Source of the DNA: Malikia granosa
GTDB lineage: Bacteria > Pseudomonadota > Gammaproteobacteria > Burkholderiales > Burkholderiaceae_C
Assembly (NCBI RefSeq): GCF_002980595.1
Contig: NZ_PVLQ01000027.1
Span: 124,001-188,000 of the forward strand
Reading direction: 5' to 3'
Length of the DNA: 64,000 nucleotides
The notes beneath the pieces were generated by a model that searched no databases, was not told the DNA's origin, and was given only the letters and a program-made list of their open reading frames with translations. Below, in pieces: positions 16,409 through 22,428 of the stretch. How positions within the stretch are numbered: the first letter of the stretch is position 1; every line of letters starts with the position of its first letter. The position numbers and the translations under genes are program-made.

Positions 16409-17182
16409 TCATGTCATCACCAGGCCGCCATCGACGACCAGGGTCTGGCCGGTCATGAAGCGGCTCCAGTCCGAGGCCAGGAACAGCACCGGGCCGGTCA
16501 CGTCTTCGGGCGTGGCGATGCGGCCCAGCGGGGTGCGCGCGATGATCTGGTCCTTGACCGCCTCGCGGGTGGCGCGGCTGGACTCGGTCGGGCTGACCAG
16601 CCCGGGCGCGACGCAGTTGACCCTGATCCCCAGGCTGCCGAGCTCGCTCGCCAGCTGGCGGCTGAAGCCGATCAGCGCCGCCTTGGCCGTCGCGTAGTCG
16701 TGGTAGGGCAGGCTGGGCTGCTGCACCAGGTCGGTCACCAGGTTGACGATGCTGCCCTGCAGCCGCTGGCGCATCGCGGGCAGCACGGCCTGGCACAGCT
16801 GGTAGCTGGCCTGCACCGCGCCGTCGAACTGGCTCTGGTAGGCGTCCCAGGGCGTTTCCCAGAAGCGCGCGCGGTTCTCGGGGTCGAAGCGGTACGGCGC
16901 GAAGGCGTTGTTGACCAGCACGTCGATGCGCCCGGTCAGCGCCAGCACCTCGTCGACCATGGCGCGCACGGCCGCCGGGTCGCGCACGTCGGCGGCAATC
17001 GCCCAGGCCGGCACGCCGTGCGCCTCGCAGCGCGCCACCACCTCGCGCGCGGCATCGGCGCGCTCGCGGTAGTTGACCACCACCATCGCGCCCTCGCGCG
17101 CGAAGGCCTCGGCGATCGCGGCACCGATGCCCCGGCTGGCGCCGGTCACCAGCACCAGCTGCTGGTCGAAGCGACGCCTCAT
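16409..17182 (-). CDS. Short-chain dehydrogenase/reductase of the riboswitch operon
   Basis: A 257-residue SDR. The NAD(P) motif TGASRGIGAAIA is near residue 13, NNAF replaces the usual NNAG, and the catalytic YATAK is near residue 158. By eye the catalytic Ser position (13 residues before Tyr) is Thr, in NLVTDL, and the helix Asn of the tetrad is not evident (QFDGAV). The active site is therefore atypical for a FabG. The ATG overlaps the stop of the substrate-binding protein gene (ATGA). It is the last gene behind the TPP riboswitch. Inferred role: reduce the aldehyde made by the LuxC-like enzyme to an alcohol, or the reverse. It would otherwise be annotated as a 3-oxoacyl-ACP reductase, which I doubt. 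Confidence 0.88.
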   Translation of the reverse strand: MRRRFDQQLVLVTGASRGIGAAIAEAFAREGAMVVVNYRERADAAREVVARCEAHGVPAWAIAADVRDPAAVRAMVDEVLALTGRIDVLVNNAFAPYRFDPENRARFWETPWDAYQSQFDGAVQASYQLCQAVLPAMRQRLQGSIVNLVTDLVQQPSLPYHDYATAKAALIGFSRQLASELGSLGIRVNCVAPGLVSPTESSRATREAVKDQIIARTPLGRIATPEDVTGPVLFLASDWSRFMTGQTLVVDGGLVMT

Positions 17183-18198
17183 GGCTTGGCCGGCAGCAGG
17201 TCGGTGCCGACGATGCTGTTGACCGCGATCTCGCGCGACAGCACGCCGATGTCGCGGTAGACCTGCAGCCCGCGCTGCAGCGTGGCGGTATCCAGGCTGC
17301 CCAGGCCCTTCTTCTGCGTCAGGCTCGAGATGCTCGAGGCATTGCGCAGCTTGATGACTTCCAGGTTGATGGCCTCGTTCTGGCCGTCGATGGCGACCCG
17401 GGTCGCCAGGCGGGCCGCTTCCTCGGGAGCCTGCATCATCCACTGCGCGCTGTCGCGAAAACCTGTCAGGAAGCGGCGCAGCAGCGCTTTTTGTCGTTGG
17501 TAGGTCTCCTCGCGCACCACCAGCAGGTCGCTGCTGAGGTTGAGCTGCTGGCGCACTTCCATCACGTTGACTTCGCCCAGGCCGCGCTGGCGCCCGACCA
17601 GCAAGCCGGTGTCGGTGGCGGCGGTGGCATCGACCTGGCCCTGCATCAGCGGCGCGAAGTTGAGCAGCCCGGTCGGCACCAGGGTGATGTCGGCTTCGCT
17701 CAGGCCGGCCGAGTGCAGCAGCACCTGCAGATTCTGCCGCGTGCCGCTGGACAGGCTGTAGACGCCGACCCGCTTGCCCTTCAGGTCGGCCGGCTTGCTG
17801 ATGCCGCGCGATTTGAGCGACACGACGTTGAAGACGTTCTGCGGGTAGACGTCGTAGATGGCGCGCAGCTTCTCGCCCTTGTCGAGCGCGGCGAACAGCG
17901 AGCCCGGGTCGGTGAAGGCGATGTCGGCCTGGCCGCTGAGCAGGTTGCGCAGCGCGTCGCCGCCGCCAGCGCCCGGCAGGTAGGAAAACTCGATGCCCTG
18001 GGCGCGGAAGAAGCCCTTGTCGGCCTCGACCAGCAGGTTCGTGATTTCCGAGATCGGCTTGCTCCAGCCGGCCAGCACCACCTTGTCGAGTGGCTGGGCC
18101 TGCGCCAGGTTGACCAGTCCGCCCAGCGGTGCGAGGCCGCCGGCCAGTCCGCCCACGGCCAGATAGCGGGCCAGGTCGCGTCGTGAAAGCTTGTGCAT
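17179..18198 (-). CDS. ABC importer substrate-binding protein, NMT1/THI5-like
   Basis: A 339-residue exported protein. The leader MHKLSRRDLARYLAVGG contains a twin-arginine-like SRRDLA motif, then a hydrophobic stretch ending ALA-like at LAQAQ. The mature part follows the NMT1/THI5-like pattern: VVLAGWSKPISEITNLLVEADKGFF, PGAGGGDALRNLLSGQADIAF, DLKGKRVGVY and TGLLNFAPLMQGQVDA. Members of this fold bind thiamine pyrimidine precursors (ThiY) or sulfonates (SsuA). The TPP riboswitch upstream favours a thiamine-related ligand. It follows the permease by 34 bases and is coupled to the dehydrogenase by an ATGA overlap. The ligand is inferred. Confidence 0.88.
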   Translation of the reverse strand: MHKLSRRDLARYLAVGGLAGGLAPLGGLVNLAQAQPLDKVVLAGWSKPISEITNLLVEADKGFFRAQGIEFSYLPGAGGGDALRNLLSGQADIAFTDPGSLFAALDKGEKLRAIYDVYPQNVFNVVSLKSRGISKPADLKGKRVGVYSLSSGTRQNLQVLLHSAGLSEADITLVPTGLLNFAPLMQGQVDATAATDTGLLVGRQRGLGEVNVMEVRQQLNLSSDLLVVREETYQRQKALLRRFLTGFRDSAQWMMQAPEEAARLATRVAIDGQNEAINLEVIKLRNASSISSLTQKKGLGSLDTATLQRGLQVYRDIGVLSREIAVNSIVGTDLLPAKP

Positions 18199-18232
18199 CA
18201 GATATTCCTTGGATCAAAAACGACGGTTTCAG

Positions 18233-18973
18233 TCACTGCCAGCGCCGCTGCAGCGCGCCGAGCAGGGCATAGGACGAGATGCCGAGCGCCGCGATCAGCG
18301 CCAGCGCGGCGAACATCAGCGCGGTGTCCATCGAGCCCTGGGCGCCGATGATCACCGCGCCCAGGCCCTGGCTGGCGCTGATGAACTCGCTCACCACGGC
18401 GCCGACCCAGGCCAGCACCAGCGCCACGCGCAGGCCCGCCGCCAGGGTGTGCCGCCCGGCCGGGATCTGCAGCCGCCACAGGGTCTGCCAGCGGCTGGCG
18501 CCCAGGGCGCGGAACAGCTCGAGCTGGCGCGCGTCGGTCTGGTCGAGCGCGCCCAGGGTGTTCTCGAGCAGCGGGAAGAAGCAGATCAGCGCCGTCATCA
18601 CCACCGTGGGCAGCAGGCCAAAGCCGAACCAGACGATGAACAAGGGCGCCAGCGCCAGCTTGGGCGTCACCTGGCTCAGCACCAGGTAAGGGGTCAGCCA
18701 GCGGCGCAGGCGCCGGCTCTGCCCAAGCAGCAGGCCGGAGCCAAAGCCCAGCGCGGCGCCCAGGACCAGCCCGAGGCCGACCGATGCCAGGGTCTGCCCC
18801 AGGTGCGGCCACCAGTAGCCGGTCGCAAAGCCCTGCCAGAGCGCGCGCCCGACCTGGGACGGCGCCGGCAGCACCAGCGCCGACAGCTGCCACCAGCGGG
18901 TCGAGAGTTCCCAGGCCAGCAGCAGGCCCAGGCCAAGTAGCAGCGAGATGCCGGCATCGAACAGGCGCTTCAT
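18233..18973 (-). CDS. ABC importer permease
   Basis: A 246-residue integral membrane protein of the SsuC/TauC/ThiX type. It has about six membrane segments and the EAA-like loop ELFRALGASRWQTLWRLQIPAG near residue 155, which contacts the ATPase. I start it at ATG 18973 (MKRLFDAG), which overlaps the ATPase stop (ATGA); an earlier codon at 19009 would add 12 residues. It works with the ATPase upstream and the substrate-binding protein downstream. Confidence 0.9.
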   Translation of the reverse strand: MKRLFDAGISLLLGLGLLLAWELSTRWWQLSALVLPAPSQVGRALWQGFATGYWWPHLGQTLASVGLGLVLGAALGFGSGLLLGQSRRLRRWLTPYLVLSQVTPKLALAPLFIVWFGFGLLPTVVMTALICFFPLLENTLGALDQTDARQLELFRALGASRWQTLWRLQIPAGRHTLAAGLRVALVLAWVGAVVSEFISASQGLGAVIIGAQGSMDTALMFAALALIAALGISSYALLGALQRRWQ

Positions 18974-22266: not shown

Positions 22267-22280
22267 GGCAGCTTTCGAGG

Positions 22281-22300
22281 GCAGGGCTGCCAGGCCCTGC
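22281..22300 (-). promoter_or_regulatory. Hairpin between TPP aptamer and LuxE-like start
   Basis: GCAGGGC-CTGGCA-GCCCTGC forms a perfect 7-bp stem with a 6-base loop. It lies 33 bases after the aptamer and 14 bases before ATG 22266. There is no U tract, so it is not a standard terminator. It may be an expression-platform element controlling translation, or merely coding sequence if ATG 22311 is used. Confidence 0.4.
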
Positions 22301-22333
22301 TGCAGCGCCATGGGGGCAACAGCAGATCCGGGA

Positions 22334-22428
22334 CCAGCTTCCCTGCGCGAGGATTACCTCAATCAGGTTCAAAGGGACTTTCTCAGTCGGCGCCCAGTCG
22401 AGTCGGATGCCAACACCCCCAGCTTTGG
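22334..22428 (-). promoter_or_regulatory. TPP (THI element) riboswitch
   Basis: Read on the minus strand, the segment holds the conserved TPP-aptamer parts in order: GGGGGTGTTGGC, CTGAGAAAGTCCC, TTTGAACCTGATTGAGG, TAATCCTCGCGCAGGGA. The outer stem can form between 22421-22428 and 22334-22340. The CTGAGA and CTGAT cores, which contact the pyrimidine and pyrophosphate, are intact. It lies 22 bases before the earliest possible LuxE-like start. The operon downstream should be expressed when thiamine pyrophosphate is low. Confidence 0.93.

Follow-up and report, generated by a model that had tools for sequence, protein, structure and literature searches.

A TPP riboswitch-headed LuxE-LuxC-SDR operon with a proposed role in salvage of the thiamin pyrimidine

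Introduction

Why should a thiamin pyrophosphate (TPP) riboswitch govern LuxE- and LuxC-like enzymes? The question is raised by a 64,000-nucleotide stretch of DNA from Malikia granosa (contig NZ_PVLQ01000027.1; analysed as a whole and referred to as the window), in which such a riboswitch precedes genes for a LuxE-like enzyme, a LuxC-like enzyme, the three components of an ATP-binding cassette (ABC) importer, and a short-chain dehydrogenase/reductase (SDR). A first reading, made from the letters of the window (the sequence-only reading), had proposed that the operon imports an oxidized pyrimidine or thiazole fragment of thiamin and reduces the acid via the aldehyde to an alcohol. On the evidence below, we consider it probable that this is a TPP-controlled salvage operon for the thiamin pyrimidine, which would import the 5-carboxylate of hydroxymethylpyrimidine (HMP) and reduce it via the aldehyde to HMP.

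Results

The operon in M. granosa

Rfam analysis of the window with cmscan identified a TPP riboswitch aptamer (RF00059) on the minus strand at 22323..22430, with 57.7 bits against a gathering cut-off of 54.3, an E value of 1.1e-8, and a match over the full length of the model. It was the sole riboswitch match at gathering within the 64-kb window and was recovered in a whole-genome scan as well. On the same strand follow the genes for a LuxE-like, putatively acyl-adenylating and acyl-transferring enzyme (21175..22311; PF04443, 71.9 bits, cut-off 24.9), a LuxC-like putative acyl-thioester reductase with Cys297 (19718..21178; PF05893, 276.6 bits, cut-off 21), an ABC transporter ATPase (18970..19728; PF00005, ABC_tran, 110.7 bits), an ABC transporter permease (18233..18973; PF00528, BPD_transp_1, 112.7 bits; the ATG at 18973 was taken as start codon rather than that of the longest open reading frame), an NMT1/THI5-type periplasmic binding protein with a ThiY-like fold (17179..18198; PF09084, 159.8 bits), and an SDR, the proposed aldehyde-to-HMP reductase (16409..17182; adh_short_C2, 205.4 bits). 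Four of the junctions between the six genes are overlaps of 4, 11, 4, and 4 bases, and the remaining one is a gap of 34 bases. The profile matches and couplings agree with the sequence-only reading, which had described a TPP riboswitch followed by these six closely spaced or overlapping genes. The folding of the leader RNA (z = −1.31) says nothing on the expression platform.

The stop codon of the SDR gene lies 14 bases from that of the convergent thiD (HMP/HMP phosphate kinase; 15546..16394, plus strand; PF08543, 313.1 bits; TIGR00097, 318.7 bits, cut-off 204.95), a neighbourhood that the first reading had also recognized. Beyond thiD, on the minus strand at 12373..15490, lie thiO, thiG, and thiE (TIGR02352, 243.6 bits, slightly below its cut-off of 250.8; ThiG PF05690, 328 bits; TMP-TENI, 141.7 bits). 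Three consecutive tRNA genes on the minus strand (12011-12291) are found past thiE. A second TPP riboswitch of the M. granosa genome (C57:7366-7470) is located directly upstream of thiC, for which a full-length match was obtained at C57:5470-6852. Judging by this gene content, M. granosa can probably make its own HMP pyrimidine, and because thiC is present the operon would supplement pyrimidine synthesis in this organism.

Conservation of the operon and its riboswitch

A contig scan yielded 102 confirmed relatives, 80 of which were kept; with nine added loci, a set of 89 loci was obtained, in which the gene order was read by tblastn with the window proteins (some contigs stop inside the operon). 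Among them are Malikia relatives (L023-L026; LuxE identity 88-91%). The order luxE-luxC-ATPase-permease-binding protein-SDR recurs in Comamonadaceae, Alcaligenaceae, Thauera, Azospirillum, and other alphaproteobacteria. Since the whole arrangement recurs in other genomes, a chance arrangement is ruled out.

For the riboswitch, a covariance model was built from 11 riboswitches of the 89-locus set, and matches were taken at E values up to 1. A TPP match in the correct place and strand was present at 84 of the 89 loci, in 78 cases before luxE and in six before thiD-luxE. Of the remaining five loci, the upstream sequence of three is cut short (at 4, 32, and 233 bases), and L082 and L094 gave no match. 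Thirty of the 84 matches were strong (56-106 bits; ten of these are the model's own sequences), and Rfam confirmed all ten strong matches tested. Four more TPP matches were located elsewhere in the 89 loci, one of which belongs to a cytX. The thi genes also accompany the operon: thiD adjoins it in Malikia, Limnohabitans, and others, and in Ramlibacter (L058, L059, L065, L068) thiD stands directly before luxE under the riboswitch. TPP control and linkage to thiamin genes, as first proposed, are supported. Linkage of homologues to fatty-acid or luciferase genes without a riboswitch had been named as the pattern that would speak against the proposal; instead, TPP matches accompany nearly all loci.

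The spread of the operon is patchy. LuxE was detected in 17 of 200 family genomes, with luxC adjoining in 16, and in 6 of 398 phylum genomes at E values up to 1e-20; weak LuxE matches (G028, G154, and G196, 27-32% identity) were excluded from the operon counts.

Individual loci depart from the common layout. L082 (an alphaproteobacterial metagenome-assembled genome, MAG) and L094 (a Paenalcaligenes MAG) are complete operons without a detectable TPP riboswitch. In two Hylemonella MAGs (L069, L070), approximately 1 kb of extra DNA separates the binding protein and SDR genes. Two Alcaligenaceae MAGs, L041 (10001-15181) and L043 (10001-15202), have no ABC ATPase gene between luxC and the permease gene, and the ATPase of these operons must come from elsewhere. 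The thiG genes near the Ramlibacter operons L059, L065, and L068 are only 53-55% identical to that of the window, because of which their thi genes are assigned to a different lineage. Near the Azospirillum operon L093, a clustered regularly interspaced short palindromic repeat (CRISPR) array (RF01330) was found at 19295-20143.

The binding protein

The AlphaFold model of the binding protein (mean confidence score, pLDDT, 85.6) had as top folds in the PDB 4nmy, a thiamin-bound protein, and 3ix1, the formylaminopyrimidine (FAMP)-binding ThiY. The fold is the same (TM-scores normalized to target length of 0.89 for 3ix1 and 0.85 for 4nmy), whereas amino acid sequence identity is 15-17% and the modelled protein has conserved residues of its own. 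Proximity of the predicted fold to thiamin- and FAMP-binding proteins was counted in favour of a pyrimidine substrate. With an NMT1/THI5-type binding protein, a permease, and an ATPase under TPP control, the importer is predicted to be of the ThiXYZ type.

THI5-type HMP phosphate synthases are defined by a cysteine-rich CCCFC motif. The corresponding stretch of THI5 (4h6d) is an insertion relative to the binding-protein profile; none of 73 binding proteins has clustered cysteines, and 42 of them have no cysteine at all. Identity as a THI5-type synthase was rejected on these grounds.

Which half of thiamin is linked to the operon

From the 80 loci, 40 operon genomes were chosen (27 isolates and 13 MAGs). 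ThiG was present in 39 of them (E values below 1e-90; the exception is MAG G202), and ThiC in 25 (in fragments in G236). ThiC was missing in the other 15, seven isolates and eight MAGs. Among 200 family genomes, in which ThiG was counted at E values below 1e-80, the operon was present in 13 of 122 genomes with both thiC and thiG, in none of three with thiC only, in three of seven with thiG only, and in one of 68 with neither gene. For the difference between the last two classes, Fisher p was 0.002 (relatedness ignored). The single genome with operon but neither gene, G093, is 55% complete and was counted on luxE alone: its luxE (48% identity, L118 297-1301) lies on a 3.25-kb contig, and no luxC was found in the 1.9 kb that follow it to the contig end. 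The G093 operon is therefore doubtful; it is either an isolated LuxE or an operon that has been disrupted.

This co-occurrence suggests that the operon serves the pyrimidine half of thiamin, the half that the sequence-only reading had favoured, with a thiazole acetate as its second candidate. A thiazole or whole-thiamin salvage system, in which 4-methylthiazole-5-acetate or thiamin acetic acid is taken up and LuxE, LuxC, and SDR restore the hydroxyethyl side chain, would require the identical acid-to-alcohol chemistry and would fit the thiamin-bound 4nmy as top fold match of the binding protein. Such a system would not be expected where thiG is kept, as it almost always is; the genomes likeliest to profit from whole-thiamin uptake, those devoid of both genes, have the operon in only the one doubtful case; and the linked kinase is thiD, not thiM. 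Moreover, thiW, which serves in thiazole uptake, was found in a single operon (Niallia, see below), as a separate gene beside a nucleobase permease. We regard salvage of the thiazole or of whole thiamin as unlikely, and thiazole acetate as a disfavoured substrate.

Co-loss with thiC, a check proposed in the first reading, does not hold in its simple form: thiC is present in M. granosa as well as in 25 of the 40 operon genomes. A plain bypass of ThiC was rejected for the same reason.

CytX, TenA, and other pyrimidine sources

CytX is a putative HMP transporter; our query scored 240 bits with TIGR02358, under the cut-off of 309.85, and matches were counted at 1e-30. The seven family genomes with thiG and without thiC have either the operon (three), CytX (three), or neither (one), and never both. 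The seventh, G131 (87% complete), has TenA and neither operon nor CytX. Among genomes with both thiC and thiG, 32 have CytX and three have CytX plus the operon; one genome lacking both genes has CytX. In G001, G029, and G216, CytX adjoins thiO-thiG and is headed by a TPP riboswitch. In the window, genes for a ferredoxin and an oxidoreductase precede the operon, and a pair 76% and 52% identical to them precedes CytX in G216; because it is preceded by the same two genes, CytX fills the slot of the operon in G216, a genome that has the operon as well, elsewhere. A passage of PMC5874261 likewise uses the absence of ThiC to argue that CytX carries HMP.

Among the 15 operon genomes that lack thiC, neither CytX nor TenA was found in six (G208, G211, G220, G222, G233, G237). 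Three genomes, G110 (98% complete), G130 (97%), and the Limnohabitans genome Jir72 (G211), had no ThiC, CytX, or TenA, in a search that did not include ThiV, ThiXYZ, or ThiBPQ; each has one TPP riboswitch, which is located at the operon.

A constant core with exchangeable importers

The genes luxE, luxC, and SDR are the constant core of the system, and the importer varies: an ABC importer, an NCS2 nucleobase permease, or none. In Enterobacter and Erwinia (L096, L097) and at two alphaproteobacterial loci (L098, L101), the arrangement is riboswitch-luxE-luxC-SDR, and no ABC genes were found. Thirteen Pantoea plasmids matched, and both of the two examined have this order without ABC genes. Plasmids of Lactobacillus plantarum and L. 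brevis have in common a cassette of TPP riboswitch-NCS2 permease-luxE-luxC-SDR, with a permease of the xanthine/uracil type (PF00860, 242.9 bits). The cassettes are located at L165 1390-6321 and L166 2947-7878, on small plasmids of 10 and 21 kb. By its gene content, this cassette is a predicted mobile vitamin-salvage module. On a Niallia taxi megaplasmid (L168 6658-12250), two tandem TPP riboswitches precede thiW-NCS2 permease-luxE-luxC-SDR (ThiW: TIGR02359, 175 bits, cut-off 84). In Priestia, the importer is of the ABC type, and the riboswitch scores below threshold (49 bits, E = 1e-8).

Replacement of the ABC importer by a nucleobase permease was counted in favour of a pyrimidine substrate. 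The loci at which no ABC genes were found, in the enterobacterial genera and the two alphaproteobacterial cases, would also fit an internal repair system, in which LuxE, LuxC, and SDR re-reduce HMP acid or aldehyde arising from stray intracellular oxidation, the importer having been added later. At most loci, however, the importer is part of the operon, importers of two unrelated types were recruited, and repair leaves unexplained those thiC-less genomes in which no other pyrimidine source was found (CytX and TenA checked). Internal repair is therefore judged improbable.

LuxE, LuxC, and SDR

The cysteine proposed as catalytic in LuxE is residue 365 when counted from the first ATG (22311) and residue 350, the number given in the sequence-only reading, when counted from the ATG at 22266. 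The latter is a possible start (363 amino acids), at which the open reading frame of the Malikia relative L023 begins. The cysteine is kept in 87 of 88 sequences (a gap in the remaining one), and its KGCS motif aligns with the KGCS of LuxE in 7xc6, the sole solved relative found by sequence. Cys297 of LuxC, also proposed at the outset as catalytic, is kept in 86 of 86 sequences, and QQGCYS aligns with QQACFS of LuxC in 7xc6. With domains over cut-off, a C-terminal acyl-accepting cysteine in the one and a catalytic cysteine in the other, the proteins are assigned to the LuxE (PF04443) and LuxC (PF05893) families. In the SDR, Tyr163 and Lys167 are kept in 78 of 78 sequences; its profile gave no match against the PDB at 1e-55.

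The closest folds to the LuxE model (pLDDT 86) were those of PaaK, an aryl-acid ligase, and this proximity of the predicted structure was counted in favour of a pyrimidine acid as substrate. At ranks 25-37 of the fold matches appeared a protein of phenazine biosynthesis (3hgv, 3l2k), taken here as EhpF of the griseoluteic acid pathway.

The names LuxE and LuxC come from fatty-acid reduction, and plasmid records label the genes long-chain fatty acid--CoA ligase and acyl-CoA reductase. These names would suit an action on fatty acids with an accidental riboswitch link; a related possibility is an acid of some other heterocyclic or aromatic kind, whose product feeds a step near thiamin other than HMP. 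The bioluminescence equivalogs were missed by far (LuxC: NF052251, 70 of 750 bits; LuxE: NF052244, 64 of 550 bits), and none of luxA, luxB, and luxD is among the six operon genes, which do not form a bioluminescence lux operon; lux-type fatty acid reduction was rejected on both counts. A riboswitch match at 84 of 89 loci and importers of the nucleobase and thiamin-pyrimidine types likewise speak against these alternatives, which we consider quite improbable.

Discussion

The proposed pathway

The substrate, the direction, and each enzymatic step are ones that we infer from genes and their context. At low TPP, the riboswitch would permit expression of the operon, if its sense is that of TPP riboswitches in general. 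A pyrimidine with a carboxyl group, 4-amino-2-methylpyrimidine-5-carboxylate being the likeliest, would enter through the ABC importer and its ThiY-fold binding protein. Its carboxylate would be adenylated with ATP by the LuxE-like enzyme and then bound, as a thioester, to the C-terminal cysteine of that enzyme. The LuxC-like enzyme would accept the acyl group on Cys297 and, with NAD(P)H as reductant, form the aldehyde, which the SDR would convert to HMP; ThiD would phosphorylate HMP for joining to the thiazole. In genomes with thiC, the operon would spare ThiC. HMP 5-carboxylate is the simplest substrate because the pathway needs the alcohol HMP and enzymes of the LuxE, LuxC, and SDR types make alcohols from acids, and because the importers are of the thiamin-pyrimidine or nucleobase type and the operon tracks thiazole makers and alternates with CytX. 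The route from acid via aldehyde to HMP and on to ThiD, as suggested in the sequence-only reading, is in keeping with thiG in 39 of 40 operon genomes and with the thiD linkage.

Several observations weigh against this reading. With respect to the riboswitch, 54 of the 84 matches were weak (17-31 bits), and many comprise the 3′ core alone. At gathering, Rfam confirmed three of seven matches of the weak class (not L056, L085, L088, or L090; L088 scored below gathering at 48.6 bits, E = 1.2e-8), and neither our covariance model nor Rfam detected a TPP riboswitch upstream of luxE in L082 and L094. Because M. granosa, like 25 of the 40 operon genomes, has thiC, the operon is in many cases not essential. 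The contingency test is based on a small sample, only seven genomes in the class with thiG and without thiC, and the contrast of this class (3/7) with genomes having both genes (13/122) is weak (p = 0.04, relatedness again ignored). Among the 15 thiC-less operon genomes, CytX was present in two (G216, G230) and TenA in seven (G207, G213, G235, G239, G238, G202, G203), with weaker TenA matches in G238 (1e-13) and in G202 and G203 (about 1e-8). The check for other sources covered CytX and TenA, and not ThiV, ThiXYZ, ThiBPQ, or other importers. Ramlibacter lithotrophicus (G208) has a TPP-headed sodium:solute symporter (L146 2862-4361); a passage of PMC11452348 places the HMP transporter ThiV in the sodium:solute symporter family. 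The G208 protein is possibly a ThiV-type HMP transporter by its family and riboswitch, and this genome is not a clean case because of it.

On the side of the proteins, the SDR of the window, like 18 of 78 sequences, has a threonine at the position that we take to be the catalytic serine. The LuxE of 7xc6 is absent among the best 50 fold matches of the LuxE model, although it is the only structural relative at the sequence level. Lys47 of the binding protein was considered as holder of the carboxylate and rejected, being present in only 55 of 73 sequences. Finally, the consulted portion of the B1 vitamer survey PMC10881298 does not list carboxylated HMP, and no pyrimidine carboxylate term occurred among the matches listed in a search of the open literature. 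The term thiamine acetic acid was absent among these matches as well.

Weighing both sides, we consider reduction of HMP 5-carboxylate by a pyrimidine-salvage operon probable, which would be a new route of thiamin salvage. In the open literature, as distinct from subscription papers and supplements, no earlier description of LuxE, LuxC, or an acyl-protein synthetase in thiamin salvage was found. The consulted passages of the riboswitch-regulon survey PMC3766115, as distinct from the gene tables in its supplements, do not mention such genes. A link to oarX, known from older comparative genomics of thiamin, was rejected: the word was found neither in the main text of PMC3766115 nor among the matches listed in the open-literature search.

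If the proposal is true, vitamin B1 salvage would gain a substrate and a series of reactions that are both new, and a vitamer, the pyrimidine 5-carboxylate, would be predicted that the consulted portion of PMC10881298 does not list. A pyrimidine source would be suggested for thiazole makers without thiC such as Limnohabitans and Ramlibacter, the annotations reading long-chain fatty acid--CoA ligase and acyl-CoA reductase would be corrected, and a LuxE-LuxC pair would have a role in vitamin metabolism, outside light production. In its widest form, which we think on balance likely, the proposal is that carboxylated HMP exists as a B1 vitamer and is traded, and that a horizontally mobile LuxE-LuxC-SDR cassette under TPP control, with importers that can replace one another (ABC, NCS2, or none), reduces it to HMP. 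The cassette would be partly plasmid-borne and distributed over Pseudomonadota and Bacillota. Such reduction would constitute a third pyrimidine-salvage chemistry beside HMP uptake and TenA hydrolysis.

Comparison with known systems

The operon shares with salvage by CytX, ThiV, and ThiXYZ-TenA the control by TPP riboswitches, the place in thi clusters, the occurrence in thiazole makers without thiC, and the proposed delivery of HMP to ThiD. Whereas those systems import HMP or the aminopyrimidines aminomethylpyrimidine (AmMP) and FAMP, the operon adds three reductive enzymes, which implies an acid as substrate. The LuxC-LuxE fatty acid reductase (7xc6) likewise combines an adenylating and acyl-transferring LuxE with a LuxC reductase, and the catalytic cysteines align; in contrast, the operon described here has a thiamin context, an added SDR, and none of luxA, luxB, and luxD among its six genes. 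EhpF and EhpG act jointly in griseoluteic acid synthesis, and we know of no riboswitch or importer associated with them. Their pathway differs from the one proposed here in belonging to secondary metabolism; it resembles it in that a dicarboxylate ends as a hydroxymethyl compound, and the LuxE model matches in fold. According to a passage of PMC3175449, EhpF-O convert phenazine-1,6-dicarboxylate to derivatives of 6-(hydroxymethyl) phenazine.

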